Shown piece after piece: positions 5,726 through 15,304 of a stretch of 17,856 nucleotides of DNA. Every line of letters begins with the position of its first letter. Within the stretch, counting starts at the first letter, position 1. This DNA comes from Leptospiraceae bacterium (GTDB lineage Bacteria > Spirochaetota > Leptospiria > Turneriellales > Turneriellaceae): positions 1-17,856 of the forward strand of contig JANWWX010000004.1 in NCBI GenBank assembly GCA_025057195.1, read 5' to 3'. The notes below the pieces were generated by a model, which was not told the DNA's origin, did not search any database, and worked only from the letters and a program-made list of their open reading frames with translations. The position numbers were made by a program, and so were the translations under genes.

Positions 5726-5811
5726 GCCGGTCGCAGGCAAGTTTTTGCCATCGCTGAAAAGCAGATTCTGCTTTTGTGCCTGTGCACAGCACGGACTTTG
5801 TCCTGATCCGG
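5726..5811. promoter_or_regulatory. Divergent spacer with two adjacent perfect palindromes
   Basis: This 86-bp spacer between the hydrolase and glycosidase-like genes holds an inverted repeat with 8-bp arms and a 3-base loop (AAAAGCAG-ATT-CTGCTTTT, 5757-5775) and, four bases on, a perfect 10-bp palindrome CTGTGCACAG (5780-5789). Their placement between two diverging starts suggests regulator-binding sites. No regulator gene lies in the window. Confidence 0.4.
5757..5775. repeat. Inverted repeat, 8-bp arms, 3-bp loop
   Basis: Perfect arms AAAAGCAG and CTGCTTTT flank ATT. It resembles an operator or, on either strand, a short hairpin ending in four Ts. Because both flanking genes point away from it, a terminator role is less likely. 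Confidence 0.5.
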
Positions 5812-8148
5812 ATGACCCCGCAAAAACCGCCTGCCGCGCCGTTGCGCCGCCAGCCCGATTATGATCTGCCGCGCGATGGCCGCTGGGCACGCCTGAAACA
5901 TTCGCTCATACGTTTTGTGCTACGCCGGCTTGGCGTGCCGCACGATGTCACCGACGTCTTGCGTTCTGCGTTCAAACTCGGCAACCCGACCGAAACCGCG
6001 TGGCCGGCCGAAACGTTGCCGATGAATGCGCGCATCTTCGCCGCCGGATTTTGGAATTATAGCTTTTTCCAATTCAACCGCAAGTTTCTGCCGCCGCTTT
6101 GGGCCGCGGAGCAATATAACCCTGCCTCAAAATCCTTTTTGCCGCGCTCGCACAACATCCTTTCGCTCAACCAGACACAGCGCAACTGGGTGGCGATCGG
6201 ATTCCCTGGCCGCAGCGTGGAAGCTTCGGTTGATATGGCCGGCAGCATCATGGTCTGGCCGGGCTCTTATAGCATCGAATTTGCCACGCTGGAAAACGGC
6301 AAGTTGCTGCGCCCACAGGACGAGGCCAAGGCGGTGGAATTGGTGTTGCATTCTGCCGACTGCCTCGAATGCCGTTGGCGCGGCCTTGCCATCCAATACC
6401 AGGCGACACCGGAAGGCATCCGGATCCAGGCACAGGGCAAAAGCCCGTTGCTTTTGTCAGTGCGACCGTTCAATGTTGAGGGGCCGGCGTTGCTTTATCG
6501 CCTCAGCTACAGCGAAAAGAAGCGGCAGCTGAGTGGTGATGCAGATATCTTTTTTGAAAAGGCGCCGGACTGGTTCCATCTGTCTAGTTGGAAAACTGGT
6601 GACGCATTGCGCCGCATTGTGCCGAAACTGCGCCGGCTCGGCAAAAAGAAAGCACCGGAACCAGTCCACGACGCCCGGGATCCGATGGGGCTGGTAACAG
6701 CAGCGTTTTATTTTTCCCGGGCGGAGCGCTGCGAGGCCAATGTCTTTGATCACCGCCACGAAACCGTGCCACAGCCACTGCGCGGCAAAACGGCGGCAGA
6801 GATTGTCACCGAGTATTTTGGCAAACCACCACAGCTGAAACTGCCCAAAGACCACGACGAATGGTTCCGCCACGCGCGGGAACACCTCATTGCGTTGTGG
6901 GACTACGACTCGATCAAACCTGGCAGCTATACCTACCACCACTTTTGGATCCGCGACGCCGTCATCATGCTTTACGCGCTCCTCCTTTTGGGCGCCAAAA
7001 AGGCAGTGCGGCCAATCCTCGAACAGTTTCCGGGTATGGTTGGCCGCAACGGGCTTTTCCGTTCGCAGACCGGCGAGTGGGATGCCAACGGCCAGGCGCT
7101 GTGGATTTTGGGACAATATGTCCGCTTCACCCAGGATTATTCGCCCATTCTTTCTATGCGCCGCCCGATCGCACGCATGCTGGACTGGATCGAAAAGTCC
7201 TGTGCGCAGTTCGGCGGTGTCCTGCCACCTGGATTTTCAGCAGAGCACCTCGGCCCCGCCGACTGGTATCTTTGGGACAACTTCTGGACGTTGGGTGGCC
7301 TGCAGGCGATCGCCCCTTGCCTGCGGGTTTTGGGACTGGAAGCCCGCGCAAAACAGCTGCAACAAAAACTAACCACGGCCCTCAAGGGCTATCTCAGCCA
7401 CTATTCGTATTATCCGGCAGCACTGGGGCGCGGCAAAGACGCCGGCATGATTGGCTCGATCGCTGCTATTTACCCACTGCAGCTTGCCGAATTCTGCGAC
7501 AGCCGCATGCTGCGCACGCTCGAGCTGATCCGGGAGAATTATTTTTTCCGGGGTTGCTTTTTCCAAGAGAACATCCATTCGGGGCTCAACCCTTATTTGA
7601 CACTGCAGATGGCTGAAAGCTATCTTTTTTTTGGGCGCACCCGGCAGGCACGCCAGATATTGCGCAGCATCCGCCAGCGTGCACAAAAAGCCTATACTTT
7701 CCCCGAAGCCATCCACGTGCGTACCGGTGGCGGCTGCATGGGCGATGGCTTCCACGGCTGGGCCTCGGCAGAATCGGTGATCATGATCCGTAATCTGATC
7801 GTGCGCGAAACCCAGCTCTGCGATGGCCGCGACGCATTGGTCTGGCTATCGGGCTTCCGCGACAAATGGCTCGCGGATGCCACCTACGCTGACAGGTTGC
7901 CGACACCGTGGTCGTACGTTTCGTACCGACTGAAAGACTATCACTTCGAGCTGGCTGGTCTATCCGCCGCAGTCACCAATGTCTTGTCGTTGCCGCAAGA
8001 ATACACCGCAATTGATGCCCGTTCCGGCAAATTGTTGCCCGAAATCCGTTTCGATGCAATCAGTGCCGCCAATTGCGATGAAAGGCGCTATTTCCTCATC
8101 GATGCGAGTTCAGGCCGTGCGGAAGTGATTTTATCCCCCACAAGGTAA
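5812..8148 (+). CDS. Six-hairpin (alpha/alpha)6 glycosidase-like protein
   Basis: A large cytoplasmic protein, 778 residues from ATG 5812, most like the six-hairpin glycosidase superfamily (GH15/GH63/amylo-alpha-1,6-glucosidase-like). The N-terminal part (about 70-310) is strand-rich, with short beta motifs and a jelly-roll or sandwich feel. From about 345 to 730 comes the helical-toroid region, with signature-like segments HHFWIRDA (376-383), TGEWDANGQALWILGQY (420-436), LWDNFWTLGGL (487-497) and GGGCMGDGFHGWASAES (639-655). D382, E422 and D424 are candidate active-site acids. No signal peptide or membrane segment is seen. An in-frame GTG at 5776 would add twelve residues but would enter the palindromic spacer. 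It leads a six-gene run and is 17 bases from the K+ channel gene. Fold class is fairly likely; substrate (a glucan or glucoside) is a guess. Confidence 0.65.
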   Translation: MTPQKPPAAPLRRQPDYDLPRDGRWARLKHSLIRFVLRRLGVPHDVTDVLRSAFKLGNPTETAWPAETLPMNARIFAAGFWNYSFFQFNRKFLPPLWAAEQYNPASKSFLPRSHNILSLNQTQRNWVAIGFPGRSVEASVDMAGSIMVWPGSYSIEFATLENGKLLRPQDEAKAVELVLHSADCLECRWRGLAIQYQATPEGIRIQAQGKSPLLLSVRPFNVEGPALLYRLSYSEKKRQLSGDADIFFEKAPDWFHLSSWKTGDALRRIVPKLRRLGKKKAPEPVHDARDPMGLVTAAFYFSRAERCEANVFDHRHETVPQPLRGKTAAEIVTEYFGKPPQLKLPKDHDEWFRHAREHLIALWDYDSIKPGSYTYHHFWIRDAVIMLYALLLLGAKKAVRPILEQFPGMVGRNGLFRSQTGEWDANGQALWILGQYVRFTQDYSPILSMRRPIARMLDWIEKSCAQFGGVLPPGFSAEHLGPADWYLWDNFWTLGGLQAIAPCLRVLGLEARAKQLQQKLTTALKGYLSHYSYYPAALGRGKDAGMIGSIAAIYPLQLAEFCDSRMLRTLELIRENYFFRGCFFQENIHSGLNPYLTLQMAESYLFFGRTRQARQILRSIRQRAQKAYTFPEAIHVRTGGGCMGDGFHGWASAESVIMIRNLIVRETQLCDGRDALVWLSGFRDKWLADATYADRLPTPWSYVSYRLKDYHFELAGLSAAVTNVLSLPQEYTAIDARSGKLLPEIRFDAISAANCDERRYFLIDASSGRAEVILSPTR

Positions 8149-8165
8149 AGATAGAAATAGCACTA

Positions 8166-8969
8166 ATGTGGCAAAAAATCCGCAATTTTGCCTGGCGCCT
8201 CTGCGAAGACACCGAAAACAGTCTTGGCCGCAATTTTAATCTGTTGATGATGGGGTTGATTCTGGTATCAACCCTGATTTGGCTGCTCGAATCGCATAAG
8301 GACTTACCGCAAAACTACCGGCAATTTCTAATCCGGGTGGAAAATGGCATCATGCTCTGCTTCATGGCCGAGTATGTTTTGCGCTACCTTGCGTATCAGA
8401 GCAGCTTTTGGCGCTATGCGCAGCAGCCGATGGCGATCATCGATCTTTTGGCCATCGTACCCTATTTTATAACGGCGCAGAATGACTTTGTCCTACTCAG
8501 GTTGCTGCGGCTTTTCCGCATCTTCCGGCTTTTGAAATTGGTGCGCCATTCCGAGGCAGTGCAGAATTTGGTACTGGTCTTTCGGCTCAACGGTAGTGTC
8601 CTCGGTGCATTCCTTTTTGTGGTGGTGGTGATCCTCTTTTTGGCGGCAGCGCTGATGCATGCGCTCGAACCAGAACGCTTTGCGCAGATGAGCGACGCGC
8701 TGTGGTGGGCGATCGTCACCCTCACTACTGTTGGCTATGGCGATCTGGTTCCGGAAACATTAGCCGGCAAATTCACCGCAGCCATCTTGATGCTCTTAGG
8801 GATTGGACTGATTGCCTTGCCCACAGGAGTGCTCGGTGCTGCGATGACAAAACTCATGCTGGAAAAGAAAAAGGCTTTTGGCAAAAAACTCTGCCCGCGC
8901 TGCGGCGAGGAGGAGCACCCCCCGCAGGCGCGCTTCTGCCACCGCTGCGGCAAAAAACTCGTGGCATGA
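8166..8969 (+). CDS. Voltage-gated potassium channel with C-terminal zinc ribbon
   Basis: A six-transmembrane Kv-type channel subunit, 267 residues, expected to form inner-membrane tetramers passing K+. Predicted segments: S1 24-42, S2 56-76, S3 88-104, S4 108-127 with basic residues at every third position (R112, R115, R118, R121, K124, R127), S5 138-163, pore helix and selectivity filter TTVGYGD (187-193), S6 202-226. The pattern fits bacterial KvAP/Kch-like voltage-sensor channels. Instead of the common RCK/KTN or cyclic-nucleotide domain, the protein ends in a short CPRC...CHRC zinc-ribbon-like module (C243, C246, C258, C261) after a lysine-rich linker. The start ATG 8166 lies 17 bases after the glycosidase-like gene, and its TGA overlaps the lplA ATG by four bases. 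Channel identity is secure; gating mode and zinc binding are inferred. Confidence 0.93.
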   Translation: MWQKIRNFAWRLCEDTENSLGRNFNLLMMGLILVSTLIWLLESHKDLPQNYRQFLIRVENGIMLCFMAEYVLRYLAYQSSFWRYAQQPMAIIDLLAIVPYFITAQNDFVLLRLLRLFRIFRLLKLVRHSEAVQNLVLVFRLNGSVLGAFLFVVVVILFLAAALMHALEPERFAQMSDALWWAIVTLTTVGYGDLVPETLAGKFTAAILMLLGIGLIALPTGVLGAAMTKLMLEKKKAFGKKLCPRCGEEEHPPQARFCHRCGKKLVA

Positions 8970-9682
8970 TCCTATATACCACCTGGTTGCCTTCGCGCCA
9001 CGCCGGATATAACCTGGCTTTAGAAGAAACATTCCTGACTGCGGCAAAGCCTGAAGGCCATGCCTGGCTTTTTTTTTATGAAAACCAAGATGCGATCATT
9101 CTCGGCAAATCCCAAGTTCTTGAAGAGGAAGTGTATCCTCACAAGGGACCTGCAGTCTTTCGCCGCATTTCGGGGGGTGGTGCCGTGTTGCATACACAGG
9201 GTAATCTGAACTATGCGCTATTTTTATCGCTTGCCGAATTCCCGCAACTGACCCACATCTCACAAAGCTACCGAATCCTGCTTTCGCCGTTGGCACAAGG
9301 CTTGGGCAAGGGAGTAACGGTGTGCGGCAGTTCGGATCTGGCAGTTTACTGCCGCGGCCAGCTGTGCAAAATTTCAGGCAATGCGCAGTGCCGCCGGCGT
9401 GGCTTTTTGCTGCAGCACGGCACACTGCTTTATTGCAAAAAAGCTGTCCGCCGTGTTAGCTATTACCTCCGGATGCCGGCCAAAATCCCCGACTACCGCA
9501 AGGCGCGCCGCCACCGCGAATTTTTAAGTCCAGTCTTGCCGTCTTACAGCCGGGCAGTGCTCATGCGCTGCGTGCGGCACGCCTTTGCATCATTTTTATC
9601 CGCTGAGCTGCGCACCGTGCCTTTTTGGCAACTCCTACAAAAACCGATTAACCCTTTTCCGGCAGAGCGTTCCCTTCGATAA
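8966..9682 (+). CDS. lplA: Lipoate-protein ligase A family protein (short form)
   Basis: A member of the biotin/lipoate ligase fold that attaches lipoate or octanoate to the lysine of lipoyl domains in 2-oxoacid dehydrogenases and the glycine cleavage system. Diagnostic motifs are RRISGGGAV (66-74) followed by GNLNYALF, and CKISGNAQ (134-141) with K135 as the conserved lysine, then LLQHGTLLY (148-156). At 238 residues it is shorter than E. coli LplA (338) and lacks the C-terminal accessory domain, so it could need a separate partner or act as a LipM/LipL-like octanoyl- or amidotransferase. The chosen ATG 8966 overlaps the channel stop as ATGA; an upstream in-frame extension from 8702 only repeats the channel gene out of frame. 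A run of nine Ts (9069-9077) lies within the gene. bolA follows six bases after the stop. Confidence 0.86.
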   Translation: MILYTTWLPSRHAGYNLALEETFLTAAKPEGHAWLFFYENQDAIILGKSQVLEEEVYPHKGPAVFRRISGGGAVLHTQGNLNYALFLSLAEFPQLTHISQSYRILLSPLAQGLGKGVTVCGSSDLAVYCRGQLCKISGNAQCRRRGFLLQHGTLLYCKKAVRRVSYYLRMPAKIPDYRKARRHREFLSPVLPSYSRAVLMRCVRHAFASFLSAELRTVPFWQLLQKPINPFPAERSLR

Positions 9683-9688
9683 GTAAAT

Positions 9689-9955
9689 ATGGGTCGCCAA
9701 GAACGGCTAATGGCACTTCTGCGTGCCCGCTTTCCCGATGCGGAAATCGAGCTTTGGGATGATTCTGCAGCGCATGAAGGCCACCTCCATTCAGGTGGGG
9801 AAACACACTTTCGATTGCGCATCCGCTCACGCGCATTCCACGGTTTAAGCCGCATTGCCATCCACCGCGCGGTCATGGATGCCGTGCGGCCTGAATTTGC
9901 CACAGGGCTGCATTCTTTGGTCATTGAGCAGGCGGAGGCGCGTGGCGAACGATAA
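9689..9955 (+). CDS. bolA: BolA family protein
   Basis: A small (88-residue) BolA/IbaG-type protein. These work with monothiol glutaredoxins in Fe-S cluster or iron handling, and mitochondrial BolA homologues are needed for full lipoyl-synthase activity. The class II KH-like fold is visible: an N-terminal helix, then the HSGGETHFRLRI stretch (34-45), then FHGLSRIAIHRAVMDAV (50-66) holding the usual helix-turn-helix-like segment. H32 and H34 lie in the loop expected to carry a cluster ligand, and H59 matches the conserved C-terminal-side histidine. Start ATG 9689 is six bases after lplA, with no clear Shine-Dalgarno sequence. Its last 14 bases overlap the start of the fusion gene. The link with lplA supports a lipoate/Fe-S role, by inference. 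There is no glutaredoxin gene in the window. Confidence 0.86.
   Translation: MGRQERLMALLRARFPDAEIELWDDSAAHEGHLHSGGETHFRLRIRSRAFHGLSRIAIHRAVMDAVRPEFATGLHSLVIEQAEARGER
9934..9938 (+). promoter_or_regulatory. Shine-Dalgarno-like GGAGG for the fusion gene
   Basis: GGAGG lies in the last codons of bolA, three bases before GTG 9942. The spacing is short, but no other good start exists at this junction and upstream in-frame codons only shadow bolA. Confidence 0.5.
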
Positions 9956-12260
9956 AAATAAAAAAACAATCGCAATCCTCGGCGCTGGTTTTTTGCAGCG
10001 GCCTTTTATCCAAAAAGCCAGAGCACGGGGTTTTTGCACTGTGGCGTTGGATGCAAATCCCCATGCTGTCGGCAAGGCCGATGCGGAAATTTTCTTGAAT
10101 GTGGAGATCGCAGATGCGCAAGCGGTGCTGAAATCCCTGGAGCCTTTTCGGGAAGATTTGGTTTTTGTCACCACCGTGGCCACGGATTTCACCCATGTTG
10201 TGGGAATCATCAACGATGCCTTTGGCCTGCCAGGTCCCACCGCCGCGCAGGGTGAGGTGCTCACGCACAAAGGCAAAATGCGCAACTTCTGCCAAAAGCA
10301 TGGCCACCCGCACCCACCCTATTGCAGCACGCGCGATAAAGATTTTTTGGCAGCCTGGATGGAAGACCACCATTGTCCCGATGGCTTTGTCATCAAGCCG
10401 GCGCAGAACATGGGAGCACGGGGGGTGATGTTCATCCGCTCTGCTGCTGATTTGGCGTACGCTTTTGAATTTGCCGCACGCCAGGACAAAACTGGCGAGG
10501 TGGTCGCAGAGCATTTTGTCCCGGCTCGCGAAATTTCAGTCGATGCTTTATGCAATCATGGCCAAGTTTTTCTCACCGGTGTTGCTGACCGCATAATCGA
10601 AATCAAAGATGGGCATTTTTTTATTGAAAACGGGCACAACCTGCCAGCACAGCTTACGCGCCGCGAATGCGAAAAAATTTTAGCGTTGCTCCAGGATTTT
10701 GCCACATCGCTGGAAAGCCTTTCCGGCAAACCCTACCACGGTGCGCTCAAAGGAGACCTCCGGCTTAAAGCAGATGGCAGCTGGGTGATTGGGGAAATCG
10801 CCGGCCGGCTTTCGGGTGGCTTCATGAGCACACACACCTACCCCGCCGCACACCAGAAAGACCTGATGGGTCTTTTTATCGAATTACTCTGCGGCGAAAT
10901 CCAGTATATCCCTTCTTTCGACGAGTCGCTCAAGACGCATGGTGTGGCCATCGAGCGCTCGCTTTATGCCACCCCCGGTGTGCTTTCACAACTGCCACGA
11001 GAAGACGAACTCGAACGCCTGCAAAAGGACTTTGCACAAGAAGGGGTGATCACCATCCACTGCAACTACCGCAATGGCGATTTGGTTTCGGATTTGCAGA
11101 GCAATGTCGGCAAAGTGTTCCATGTGGTCATCCACCGTGATACGCTCGCTGCTGCAGAGGAAATCTTTGCACGGCTCAAGCCACAGCTAAACTTCCGTAG
11201 CGAAATCCCCCCTTACGATGCGCGGTTTTTTGCCAAGCGTGCGCGCGAGCGATTCCACCATGATTTCTGCTGGGTGTGCAAAGTCTGCGACGGCAACTAC
11301 TGTGCCTCGGGTGTGCCGGGTATGGGTGGGCAGGGCGCGATGCATTCTTTCCGCGATAACATTGCCGCCTTAGCCGAATACCGTGTGCTGCCGGTTTATA
11401 CAGAAAAAAGCGACACCCAGAGCGATCTGCGTTTTCGCTTTTTACGCGATGCGCGCTGGACTTTTGCCGGCCCCGTGCTTTCTGCCCCGATCACGGGCAG
11501 CATCACCAACATGGGTGGCTCCATCACTGAATACGACTATGCCATCGAGACGGGGACGGCGATGCGGCTTTTAGACCTTTTGCCCACCTTCGGCGATGGC
11601 GCCACGCACGATAAGTACCGCGTGGGCTTGCATGCAATCGCACGTTTGGGCTGCGGCATCCCCATCTTCAAGCCACGCCGCGACCAAAAAGAACTCATCC
11701 GCCGCATCCAAGAAGCAGAAAAAGCCGGGGCCACAGCCTGGGGCATAGACATTGATGGCGTTTCATTCAAAACCATGGCACTCAAAGGCATTGCCACCGC
11801 ACACAAAAGCCTTGCCGAATTGCGTGAGCTTGCCTCAGCCAGCCCACTGCCGATGGTGATCAAGGGAGTTTTGACCAAAGAGGACGCAGAAATAGCGATT
11901 GCCGCCGGCGCCAAGGCGATTGTCGTGAGCAACCACGGCGGCAGGGTTGCAGACGGCATGCCGGGAGTGGCGCGGATTCTGCCTGATCTGGCGCGCTTCA
12001 TCCGTCGCAATGCCCCCGATGTCCAGATTTTGGCCGACGGCGGCATCCGCTCTGGCGCAGACATCTTCAAAATGCTGGCGCTCGGTGCGGAGGCAGTCCT
12101 TGTTGGCAGGCCGATTGCGATCATGGCCGTGGGCGCAGGCCGGGTCGGGGTGGCCAGCATGCTGCGCGCATGGCTCGACGAGCTGCGGACACTCATGGCG
12201 GTGCAGGGAATTGCTGATCTCGCCAGCATTGGTCCGCAGCACATTGCAAAATTCATTTGA
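9942..12260 (+). CDS. ATP-grasp ligase fused to FMN-dependent alpha-hydroxy-acid oxidase
   Basis: A 772-residue two-enzyme protein from GTG 9942, probably cytoplasmic; I do not recognise a characterised counterpart. Residues 8-110 form a Rossmann-like pre-ATP-grasp domain (AILGAG). ATP-grasp follows: FVIKPAQNMGARGV (149-162, K152), EVVAEHFVPAREISVD (186-201), and HGALKGDLRLK to GEIAGRLSGG (266-293), with E285 as candidate Mg ligand. About 335-420 resembles the LAL_C2 domain of L-amino-acid ligases. A cysteine motif (C443, C446, C449, C454) precedes GVPGMGG and opens a full FMN oxidase module like those of clostridial alpha-hydroxy-acid oxidising proteins: K641, SNHGGR (663-668; H665, R668), DGGIRSG (699-705) and GRP (722-724). 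It overlaps bolA by 14 bases. The likely chemistry is ATP-dependent amide or thioester ligation plus oxidation of a 2-hydroxy acid; substrates are unknown. Confidence 0.85.
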   Translation: MANDKNKKTIAILGAGFLQRPFIQKARARGFCTVALDANPHAVGKADAEIFLNVEIADAQAVLKSLEPFREDLVFVTTVATDFTHVVGIINDAFGLPGPTAAQGEVLTHKGKMRNFCQKHGHPHPPYCSTRDKDFLAAWMEDHHCPDGFVIKPAQNMGARGVMFIRSAADLAYAFEFAARQDKTGEVVAEHFVPAREISVDALCNHGQVFLTGVADRIIEIKDGHFFIENGHNLPAQLTRRECEKILALLQDFATSLESLSGKPYHGALKGDLRLKADGSWVIGEIAGRLSGGFMSTHTYPAAHQKDLMGLFIELLCGEIQYIPSFDESLKTHGVAIERSLYATPGVLSQLPREDELERLQKDFAQEGVITIHCNYRNGDLVSDLQSNVGKVFHVVIHRDTLAAAEEIFARLKPQLNFRSEIPPYDARFFAKRARERFHHDFCWVCKVCDGNYCASGVPGMGGQGAMHSFRDNIAALAEYRVLPVYTEKSDTQSDLRFRFLRDARWTFAGPVLSAPITGSITNMGGSITEYDYAIETGTAMRLLDLLPTFGDGATHDKYRVGLHAIARLGCGIPIFKPRRDQKELIRRIQEAEKAGATAWGIDIDGVSFKTMALKGIATAHKSLAELRELASASPLPMVIKGVLTKEDAEIAIAAGAKAIVVSNHGGRVADGMPGVARILPDLARFIRRNAPDVQILADGGIRSGADIFKMLALGAEAVLVGRPIAIMAVGAGRVGVASMLRAWLDELRTLMAVQGIADLASIGPQHIAKFI

Positions 12261-12289
12261 CGGCCGGCAAAAGCCCAAAAGCCAATGCC

Positions 12290-15200
12290 ATGCGCTGTGT
12301 GCTATGGCTCCTTGTGGTTTTAGGTCTCCACTGCCATGTCGGCGTGCACGATCCAGGGCTGGGTGACGGCAGGGAGCGCTTTTCGGTCTATTATTCCGAG
12401 CCGGGACGCGACATGTTCACGATGGTGGACAAAAAAGTCGATGAGGAGCTGATACGGCTCATCGACAACGCGCAGCGCTATGTCTATCTTGCTGTCTATA
12501 ATTTCAACAAAACTTCGGTGGTGCAGGCGGTGCTGCGTGCCTTCCAACGCAACCTCGATGTGCGTGTGGTCGGCGACATCGACGAGTTTTATACCAGCGG
12601 TTACCAAGCAATGTTTTTTAACAACATCAACATGACGCTGGGCAACTCGTCAGGGATCCAACATAACAAATTTGCCGTGGTTGATGACCGCTTTGTCTTC
12701 ACCGGCACCGGCAACATTTCCGAGACCGACATGGTGCGCAACAACAACAATTGGTATATCATCGAAAACCCAGATGTCGTGCGTATATACAAAGAAGAAT
12801 TCCTGCAGATGCACAACGGCCTTTTTGCCTCGCAAAAACGGCAACGCTCGGTCAATACCACCACGGTGGTGAATAACTATCCGCTCGAGATCTATTTTTC
12901 ACCTTACCAGGGCAACGAGGCGATGGACCGCATCATCGAGCTGGTCGAATCGGCAACGCAAAGCATCCATTACATGATTTTTGCTTATACGCACGATGAG
13001 CTCGACGCTGCGATGGTCAAGATGGCGCGGCAAAAGGGCATTCCGGTCTATGGCATCCACGATTCGACCTTTGTCACGGGTGTTTCCGAAGAAGCCCCCA
13101 AGCTCTACTCGGCGATTTTCAACAACGACGGTTCATTGCACCCGACTGGACCTTTCGTGCGCTGGGATGGCAATGAAAATACTTCGGTAAAAAATAACCC
13201 GGCGCACGGCGGCAAGATGCACTGCAAGACCGTGCTCATCGATGCCGGCACCGAGAAGGCCAAGATGGCAACTGGCTCTTTCAATTGGTCAAATAATGCA
13301 ATCAACAACAACGACGAAAATGTGATCATTGTGCACCAGCCGCGTGTGGTCAATACCATCTACCGCCAGTGGCAGGATGCTTGGGGTATTGCTAACGACA
13401 TGGCGCTGCGCGTGACCCCGCGCGGGCATATCGCCAACCCCGGGGATGTGGTCATCACCGAAATTGGCTGGGCTGGCTCCACCGATGGCTCTTCGATCAA
13501 GGGCAACGACGATTTCATCGAGATCCTCAATAACACCGGACAGCCAATTGACCTTTCACACTGGGCGATCCAGTGGGGGCCCAACGACAAGCGCAACCTC
13601 TATCCGGTGCCCGACAACCATAACTGGTACTACGAAAACAAAAACTCGTGCGCAGGTTATTTGGGCTATCTTTCCCCGCAGCCGAATATCATCTGTCCTG
13701 GACAAATCCGCATCTTCTTTGTGCCCAAACCTAACAATGCCCCGAGCGCTTTTGCCGAGGTCGGCGCTGATGAGATCATCACCTACAACGAAGATGGCGC
13801 GGAGATCCGCAGCTCTACCGGCGGTTCGCTTTCGACCGAGCACTTTCCCATCGCCGGCACCAAGAATTTCCGGCTCAACCGTGGGCGTTTCCGTGTCCGC
13901 CTTTACGACAAGGCGATGAATTTGATCGACGAGGCGGGAAATGGCGATGCGGCGTTTGCCGGTGAATTGGCCGACTACAATTCCCCCAAACAAACTTTTT
14001 CTTTGGAGCGGCGCGGCTGCACCGCTGCGCCATGGCCATGCACCTGGCCTAGCTGTCCCCGTTGCCAGGGCTATTTGCCAGGAAATTTGCCTTCGGCATG
14101 GTTTACGCATCCCTTAGGACAACCTTATAACTGCAGCAGCCGGCAGGATTATAGCGTCTCCAATCCCATCGATGCCTGCCTGGAGCGGGCAGCCAACACC
14201 TTTTCTTCTGCAGGGTACATATATAGCAGCGAAGCTGATCCACAGATTGTGCGCGCCGAAGCCATCAGCGCCAACCAAATCCGGGTCACTTTTGACAGCA
14301 ATGTGAGTGGTGCTTTGGCACCGAATAATTGCCTCACGGCTGGCTCGCTCAGCATTAGCGAAACCTACGATCCGGGGAATCTCTGCAGCGCACCAACCAT
14401 CAGCACCCTCAGCGCTGGTAGCAACTCCTCACAGGTGATTGCCACACTGTCTGCGGCGGCGATGGCCTCTCCCACTTGCCGCTACCAAATTTCTGCCGCC
14501 GCCTCCTGCCATGACTATGGTAACCGTTCCGCCAGCGGCAGTTCCATCCATTTCAATGGCTATACACCAACCCTGGCAACAGCGATCCTTAACGAAATCT
14601 GTGTTACGGATTGCCCCAGCGGCACGTTCAATGGCAAGGATTGGGTGGAGATAAAGACTACCTCGGCCGGTTCGCTGCGCGGCCTCAAGGTCTATTATTA
14701 CGATGATAGTGACTTGCGCTTGCTTTACGAATTCCACGATGTCTATGCCCCAGCCAATGCCATTGTCGCCATTGGCGTCGCCCAGGCCAGTTTTGCCCGC
14801 CCGGACCGCACCAGTGGTTCACCCAGCTTTCCAATGGTCATCCAGTTGCGTGATACTGAAGGCTTTACTGCCACTGACGGTACGTTCATTCTCACTTACT
14901 GCGCGACTGGTGAAAACGATGTGGTGGATAATAACCAGCCTGGTTGCAACCTGCCCAAAAAGGGCATCCAGGATGCGGTCTATTATTCCAACCGCGATAG
15001 CTCAATAGCCTCGGGAATGGTGGCAGGTGCGCTGCAGCATTTTTACACATCGCTCAAGTCCTTTTGGCCGATTGCCGAACGGCCTGTTTCAGGACTCAAC
15101 GACCGGCAGACACAGCTCACCGCAGCCTGCATTGCCGCCGATAGCAGCGCTTTCGAAAATGCCACCTATTTTTGCAGCAACTCGGGAGCCGGCATTGCGC

Positions 15201-15304
15201 GCTCGGGCAGCGACATGGGTGGTGTGCAGAATCCGGCAAAGGCTGCTTGGCGCAATTTCCCCAAAGCGCAGCTCAGCCCAGCAGCCCCCAATACGGCATG
15301 GTGA
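12290..15304 (+). CDS. Secreted phospholipase D-like protein with two lamin-tail domains
   Basis: A 1004-residue exported protein. The N-terminus MRCVLWLLVVLGLHC looks like a Sec signal peptide; a lipobox is not convincing, because histidine precedes C15. Two HKD phosphodiesterase halves follow: H125-K127-D132 with GTGN (139-142), and H311-K313-D318 with GSFN (329-332), enough for one complete PLD active site (nuclease or phospholipase). Residues about 383-578 form a lamin-tail domain (GDVVITEIGWAG, then DDFIEILNN). A cysteine-rich linker (C577, C584, C589, C592) leads to a threonine/serine-rich Ig-like region (about 650-757), then a second lamin-tail-like domain (ATAILNEICV, KDWVEIKTT; 763-910). 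A TTG at 12257 overlapping the previous stop as TTGA is an alternative start adding eleven residues. Many cysteines fit an envelope or extracellular location. Exact substrate is unknown. Confidence 0.85.
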   Translation: MRCVLWLLVVLGLHCHVGVHDPGLGDGRERFSVYYSEPGRDMFTMVDKKVDEELIRLIDNAQRYVYLAVYNFNKTSVVQAVLRAFQRNLDVRVVGDIDEFYTSGYQAMFFNNINMTLGNSSGIQHNKFAVVDDRFVFTGTGNISETDMVRNNNNWYIIENPDVVRIYKEEFLQMHNGLFASQKRQRSVNTTTVVNNYPLEIYFSPYQGNEAMDRIIELVESATQSIHYMIFAYTHDELDAAMVKMARQKGIPVYGIHDSTFVTGVSEEAPKLYSAIFNNDGSLHPTGPFVRWDGNENTSVKNNPAHGGKMHCKTVLIDAGTEKAKMATGSFNWSNNAINNNDENVIIVHQPRVVNTIYRQWQDAWGIANDMALRVTPRGHIANPGDVVITEIGWAGSTDGSSIKGNDDFIEILNNTGQPIDLSHWAIQWGPNDKRNLYPVPDNHNWYYENKNSCAGYLGYLSPQPNIICPGQIRIFFVPKPNNAPSAFAEVGADEIITYNEDGAEIRSSTGGSLSTEHFPIAGTKNFRLNRGRFRVRLYDKAMNLIDEAGNGDAAFAGELADYNSPKQTFSLERRGCTAAPWPCTWPSCPRCQGYLPGNLPSAWFTHPLGQPYNCSSRQDYSVSNPIDACLERAANTFSSAGYIYSSEADPQIVRAEAISANQIRVTFDSNVSGALAPNNCLTAGSLSISETYDPGNLCSAPTISTLSAGSNSSQVIATLSAAAMASPTCRYQISAAASCHDYGNRSASGSSIHFNGYTPTLATAILNEICVTDCPSGTFNGKDWVEIKTTSAGSLRGLKVYYYDDSDLRLLYEFHDVYAPANAIVAIGVAQASFARPDRTSGSPSFPMVIQLRDTEGFTATDGTFILTYCATGENDVVDNNQPGCNLPKKGIQDAVYYSNRDSSIASGMVAGALQHFYTSLKSFWPIAERPVSGLNDRQTQLTAACIAADSSAFENATYFCSNSGAGIARSGSDMGGVQNPAKAAWRNFPKAQLSPAAPNTAW

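Follow-up and report, generated by a model that had tools for sequence, protein, structure and literature searches.

A fused ATP-grasp and four-cysteine FMN protein widespread in the Spirochaetota, with a possible role in a flagella-associated sugar pathway

A stretch of 17,856 nucleotides from a Leptospiraceae bacterium of the Turneriellaceae (positions 1 to 17,856 of contig JANWWX010000004.1, assembly GCA_025057195.1; hereafter the window) encodes a 772-residue protein in which an ATP-grasp ligase half is fused to a half related to flavin mononucleotide (FMN)-dependent alpha-hydroxy-acid oxidases. The fusion is real, and its architecture is widespread in the Spirochaetota. Because the halves are fused across much of the phylum, and each also occurs on its own at a shared type of locus, they probably act in one pathway; tentatively, and well short of even confidence, the protein may be a bifunctional enzyme of a flagella-associated sugar pathway common in spirochaetes. 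An earlier note on this DNA had proposed that ligation and 2-hydroxy-acid oxidation act on a single substrate or pathway; ligation together with 2-hydroxy-acid chemistry stays the best guess, although the FMN half falls outside the canonical hydroxy-acid oxidases.

The fused gene and its distribution

The reading frame (9942-12260, forward strand) is uninterrupted, with 0 internal stops, and it holds both modules as first read, including every residue named at the time: K152, E285, K641, S663-NHGGR-668 and D699-GGIRSG-705. Thirty-three homologs (P0003-P0035), at 59-70% identity, span 99-100% of the 772 residues. The predicted structure (predicted local distance difference test score, 91.4; predicted template modelling score, 0.90) is confident in both halves apart from the N-terminus and the cysteine loop at approximately residues 440-470.

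Distribution was assessed in 120 genomes of Spirochaetota, the window's own included, of which 119 have at least 90% completeness and at most 5% contamination. Genome classes and distances between genes were derived by hand from tables of matches; counts for the ATP-grasp and FMN profiles, and for FlaA and FliM, are among the matches listed, from which late or weak matches may be absent. One or both halves of the fused profile are matched (E <= 1e-25) in 115 of the 120 genomes: 69, the window's own among them, have the single-frame fusion; 22 are of a Brachyspira type; 23 have an unfused ATP-grasp gene; and one (G068) is split by contig ends. The five genomes without a profile match are G008, an assembly of 470 contigs, and four of genus g62 (1.0-1.5 Mb). 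The 69 single-frame, full-length matches rule out a misassembly or frameshift at 11240-11270. In another sample of 61 genomes (again including the window's own), 57 match, and a whole-protein search of 7998 candidates yielded 242 homologs, of which the 120 listed are nearly all fusions, including those of Turneriella parva and Leptospira fainei.

Leptospira interrogans LA2659, tabled in 2010 as a hypothetical protein, "Isopentenyl-diphosphate delta-isomerase, FMN-dependent; ATP-grasp fold" (PMC2964297), has the same architecture, judged from its label alone. The table in the available part of that paper gives no function, and a literature search found no other paper for the domain pair or naming LA2659. 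The suggestion that no described enzyme joins the two halves is therefore sustained for function, within the literature searched, but not for architecture, which is common and already known in annotation; what is new, as far as the literature was searched, is its link to a flagellar locus.

Linkage to spiro-SPASM, cytidylyltransferase and flaA genes

At two loci with an unfused ATP-grasp gene (L160 and L154), the gene order is radical SAM/SPASM protein, unknown gene, cytidylyltransferase (PF02348), PseG-like protein with methyltransferase, ATP-grasp, amidase (PF01520), GerMN-like protein (under the cut-off) and FlaA (PF04620). The radical SAM/SPASM protein of L154 is identified as spiro-SPASM (TIGR04321, 520.4 bits, cut-off 250), a name used in no paper found by the literature search. 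The unfused ATP-grasp gene lies 1.0-2.6 kb from flaA in 14 of 23 genomes, representing six families (G052, G079, G141, G103, G091, G120, G099, G123, G126, G107, G132, G111, G087 and G138), and spiro-SPASM is 3.3-3.7 kb from it in 13 of the 23, namely the same genomes minus G138. In G083, a HAD gene comes after the genes for spiro-SPASM, an unknown protein and the cytidylyltransferase, PseG-like and methyltransferase proteins, and next, 0.9 kb behind, is a four-cysteine FMN gene, the product of which (293 residues) scores 170.3 bits against the profile of the fusion's C-terminal half and 90.7 bits against FMN_dh; the ATP-grasp gene of this genome is elsewhere. Four of the 69 fused genomes (G049, G056, G086 and G088, counted by hand) have a pathway gene at most 7 kb from the fusion gene, compared with a chance expectation of about 0.6, a rough Poisson figure that assumes two pathway loci with 7 kb per side in genomes averaging 3.3 Mb, and that was computed after the pairs had been seen.

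The spiro-SPASM gene is found in 116 of the 120 genomes (108 over the cut-off), being absent only from the four g62 genomes, and a query of the PseG-like protein with methyltransferase matches 109. In the order and class to which the window belongs, cytidylyltransferase and PseG-like genes stand beside spiro-SPASM at four loci (L181-L183 and L187). The window's own genome, which is 54% complete, has spiro-SPASM, and the cytidylyltransferase family has no match in it.

The presence of a SPASM-type radical SAM protein (TIGR04321, as above) raises the alternative of a peptide-derived cofactor or natural product, in which spiro-SPASM would modify a peptide, the ATP-grasp half would serve as an amino-acid ligase, and the FMN half would act on the modified peptide in the manner of MftD of mycofactocin biosynthesis. 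The resemblance of the ATP-grasp half to amino-acid ligases and the 85.0 bits of the FMN half against MftD are consistent with this pathway, but the MftD cut-off is 470.85 bits, and the locus contains a cytidylyltransferase as well as, in 14 of the 23 unfused genomes, FlaA; we consider it unlikely.

A separate observation at these loci is a 306-residue protein (L160:5238-6158) without a Pfam or NCBIfam match, which recurs in five of the compared loci as well as in L184 and L185.

The ATP-grasp half

The ATP-grasp_4 domain of Pfam matches residues 149-297 above its cut-off (31.3 versus 27 bits). The 25 N-terminal halves compared share an invariant ATP-grasp core, which is conserved in unfused relatives too. 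The ATP-grasp module is borne out, while the LAL_C2-like domain that had been thought probable matches residues 365-419 of the 772-residue protein under its cut-off (25.1 versus 29.4 bits); it is detected in 19 of 28 fused homologs (E <= 0.001) and exceeds the cut-off in the unfused relative at L160 (62.4 bits). The fold and the ATP-grasp core are shared with the L-amino acid ligases BL00235 (3vot) and RizA (4wd3), from which the N-terminal half differs in its low identity (18-19%) and its sub-cut-off LAL_C2; 4dim (named phosphoribosylglycinamide synthetase), PurK and PurT are comparably good matches. Pyruvate carboxylases, which occupy Foldseek ranks 1-6, were rejected as an artefact that arises from two unrelated domains, since they are stretched across both halves with a root-mean-square deviation of 21-23; the VIA rows span almost solely residues 423-772, the FMN half.

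The FMN half and its four cysteines

FMN_dh matches residues 617-769 well above its cut-off (161.1 bits, cut-off 24.9), and the half shares its TIM barrel and catalytic K641, H665 and R668 with mandelate oxidase (5zzp), glycolate oxidase and HAO1 (PF01070). The cysteine, lysine, histidine, arginine and DGG residues, these catalytic three among them, are all invariant in 28 fused homologs. Unlike the alpha-hydroxy-acid oxidases, the half is fused to a ligase, and it differs at the positions of both active-site tyrosines of spinach glycolate oxidase, Tyr24 and Tyr129: the region of the former is replaced by the four-cysteine N-terminus, and at the place of the latter, where Pro574 aligns with the active-site tyrosine of HAO1, there is no tyrosine in the strand (the profile alignment is weak there, i-Evalue 0.01). 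Because of this lack of a Tyr129 equivalent, the FMN-dependent oxidase module first proposed is upheld by FMN_dh and the lysine, histidine and arginine motifs, but not as a canonical hydroxy-acid oxidase. The protein misses the NCBIfam equivalog cut-offs of LldD (99.0 of 550 bits), lactate oxidase (85.9 of 645.5) and MftD (85.0 of 470.85).

The cysteines (C443-x2-C446-x2-C449-x4-C454) are kept in 28 of 28 fused homologs and in 18 of 18 unfused proteins; in the latter, which are 336-346 residues long, CX2CX2CX4C occurs approximately 18 residues after the start (11 were also aligned with the half encoded in the window). Since the motif is present at the N-terminus of unfused relatives, it belongs to the FMN subfamily and is an N-terminal signature rather than a linker, so that the idea of a four-cysteine hinge is abandoned. 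Its spacing suits a putative iron-sulfur (Fe-S) site. A search with the FMN half scored 8000 candidates, of which 4147 had E <= 0.001 and 120 were listed, with names including Thermodesulfovibrio, Desulfosporosinus and Clostridia; being limited to proteins of about 191-609 residues (approximately 0.55-1.75 times the query), it is blind to full-length fusions and uninformative on their frequency. Unfused proteins named alpha-hydroxy-acid oxidizing protein in Clostridia, Nitrospirae and sulfate reducers share the CxxCxxCxGxxC pattern and about 41-48% identity with the FMN half, and differ in being without an ATP-grasp half. DVU2784 (PMC4481167) was also considered as a lead.

A search for loci of the unfused FMN gene matched at least 596 stretches, from which the best 80 loci were kept; the query was made from unfused proteins and is biased toward them. 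Two of the 80 are fusions (L138 and L139), both labelled Nitrospinota and so outside the Spirochaetota. An HpcH/HpaI-type aldolase gene (L138:5517-6302, 31.9 bits, cut-off 25) is directly behind the first; enzymes of this type make 4-hydroxy-2-oxo acids. Among the other 78 loci, with flanks of at most 10 kb that were often ended by contig ends and, in L143, without a called FMN frame, there is no ATP-grasp gene of the fusion's kind nearby except for two weak matches (L151 and L147). Adjacent separate genes of the kind expected of a Rosetta-stone pair, sought here outside spirochaetes, were found at none of these 78 loci.

These loci bear on the alternative that the protein functions in breakdown of a 2-hydroxy acid such as lactate, the FMN half being the lactate dehydrogenase and the ATP-grasp half capturing its product. 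Three of the 78 unfused loci (L077, L081 and L125) have lactate permease-, LutB- and GlcD-like genes close by, assigned by eye; the general lack of such an ATP-grasp gene at the 78 loci, the missing tyrosine, and scores far below the lactate oxidase and LldD cut-offs argue against this role, which seems quite improbable.

Separated and degenerate halves

In two Brachyspira-type proteins (L060:8342-10492 and L164:7309-9519), the ATP-grasp half is intact and the FMN half retains its length without the cysteines, NHGGR or DGGIRSG, and the C-terminal half of L163 has only a weak profile match starting at position 49 (89.7 bits). A separate FMN match is listed for 20 of the 22 Brachyspira-type genomes, all 22 having at least two matches; in G143, a member of the same family, the fusion is intact. 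The ATP-grasp gene of Treponema-type genomes has a different C-terminal tail, and no FMN match (E <= 1e-25, among the matches listed) is found in 10 of the 23 genomes in which the ATP-grasp gene is unfused. Two genomes (G063 and G071) have a separate ATP-grasp gene together with a second fusion, in which the ATP-grasp half is weak (128.6 and 135.6 bits) and the FMN half strong (268.3 and 263.2 bits).

The degenerate halves of L060 and L164 and the 10 genomes without an FMN match could mean that the ATP-grasp half is the sole working enzyme, the FMN half having turned structural or regulatory in many species. The invariance of the FMN-half residues in the 28 fused homologs speaks against this explanation, as do the separate FMN matches of the Brachyspira-type genomes (20 listed, and an unlisted second match in each of the other two), and we hold it to be decidedly unlikely.

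A second type of fusion, in which the ATP-grasp half is weak and the four-cysteine FMN half strong, is encoded at L161:8399-10561 and L166:7839-10007, behind a DNA polymerase IV-like gene.

Genes around the fusion in the window

The features are collected in Table 1. The start codon of the fusion gene is GTG (9942-9944), preceded by AGGCGGAGG at 9930-9938, and the start of the lplA-like gene overlaps the stop of an ion-channel gene (8166-8969). Wherever no Pfam or NCBIfam match is given for a neighbour, in the window or in the loci compared, its family was assigned by eye.

Table 1. Coordinates of the fused gene, its parts and its neighbours in the window
Feature	Position	Strand	Basis
Fused ATP-grasp / four-cysteine FMN_dh protein, 772 residues	9942..12260	+	Frame, Pfam, homologs, predicted structure
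ATP-grasp ligase half, ~residues 1-419 (pre-ATP-grasp, ATP-grasp_4 149-297, LAL_C2-like 365-419)	9942..11198	+	Pfam, structure comparison, N-half alignment
FMN half, ~residues 424-772, hydroxy-acid-oxidase-type TIM barrel	11211..12257	+	Pfam, structure comparison, alignment
CX2CX2CX4C motif, C443-C454	11268..11303	+	Invariant in 28 fused homologs; N-terminal in unfused relatives
Lipoate-protein ligase-like gene (LplA-B_cat), second gene upstream of the fusion gene	8966..9682	+	Pfam
bolA-like gene, 3' end overlapping the fusion gene start	9689..9955	+	Pfam
Phospholipase-D-type protein with lamin-tail domain, TTG start overlapping the fusion gene stop	12257..15304	+	Pfam

A lipoate- or tRNA-linked housekeeping enzyme might be supposed from neighbours of the lplA/lipB, mnmA and mnmG kinds: among the 41 loci compared, 8 have an LplA- or LipB-like gene at the first or second position upstream, 5 have an upstream MnmA-like gene and 7 a nearby MnmG-like gene, with one or two members of each kind confirmed by Pfam. 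The neighbours vary between families, however, and no known pathway is common to them and the ATP-grasp/FMN pair, which makes such a role very improbable.

Elsewhere in the window, a 790-residue protein (5776-8148) has no Pfam match (E <= 0.01) and only a weak NCBIfam match to trehalase (E 0.0025).

A possible role in flagellin glycosylation

Densities on FlaB1 of Leptospira biflexa have been interpreted as glycans in the available text of one study (PMC13144727), and according to the accessible part of another, the flagellins of Treponema denticola bear a novel 450.2 Da glycan, reportedly essential for filament assembly (PMC9481697). The tentatively proposed flagella-associated pathway would supply flagellin with an activated amino sugar of the nonulosonic-acid type. 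Before ligation, an acid would be interconverted between its 2-hydroxy and 2-oxo forms by the FMN half, which may carry an Fe-S cluster on its four cysteines, and the ATP-grasp half would form the acyl phosphate of the hydroxy acid and join the acid as an amide to the amino sugar. A bolder version, which we regard as speculative and rather unlikely in its full detail, sees in the fusion the missing enzyme for preparing and attaching the acyl group of a nonulosonic acid that nearly all spirochaetes except g62 would make for flagellin: an Fe-S/FMN dehydrogenase would set C2 of a 3-deoxy-hexonic acid and pass the acid to the ATP-grasp ligase of the same chain, in a pathway with the spiro-SPASM, cytidylyltransferase, PseG-like and methyltransferase proteins. 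The T. denticola glycan is said to be a nonulosonic acid with an N7 2-methoxy-4,5,6-trihydroxyhexanoyl group; to make it, an amide ligase would be required together with a C2 oxidoreductase and an O-methyltransferase, which would match the set found here.

Several observations weigh against a flagellar-sugar role. The FMN gene is joined to the locus in G083 only, and 65 of the 69 fused genomes have no pathway gene within 7 kb of the fusion, some being cut by contig ends and FlaA distances not having been checked individually. The window's own neighbours (lplA, bolA and phospholipase D) give no support, and in the window's own family (L178-L180; G000, G004 and G007) neither a cytidylyltransferase nor a PseG-like gene stands next to spiro-SPASM within the stretches read; because these neighbourhoods show no partner genes, the proposal is weakened. 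The PseG-like genes themselves are under the PseG cut-off (34.3 bits in L160 and 59.5 in L056, versus 153.55); the query of PseG-like protein with methyltransferase is matched only in its methyltransferase part in the window's class, and not at all in G051, G094, G098, G121, G130 and G139, all of which have the ATP-grasp gene. Neither of the two Nitrospinota-labelled fusion genomes has spiro-SPASM over the cut-off; the query of PseG-like protein with methyltransferase has no match in one (G144) and weak methyltransferase matches only in the other (G145). G008 has a spiro-SPASM fragment without an ATP-grasp match. Phylum-wide co-occurrence of core genes is in any case poor evidence, and FliM or FlaA is present in all 120 genomes, so that the sample holds no flagella-less spirochaete as a control. 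The two Brachyspira-type proteins with degenerate FMN halves count on the same side, as do the 10 of 23 genomes without an FMN match, which imply that the two steps are separable.

If the proposed role is correct, the fusion would name genes for the flagellin modification, the enzymes of which go unnamed in the available parts of the two studies (PMC13144727, PMC9481697), and would assign a role to the spiro-SPASM family. It would predict a two-step chemistry within one chain, and would give the first hint at the chemistry of the large four-cysteine FMN subfamily.
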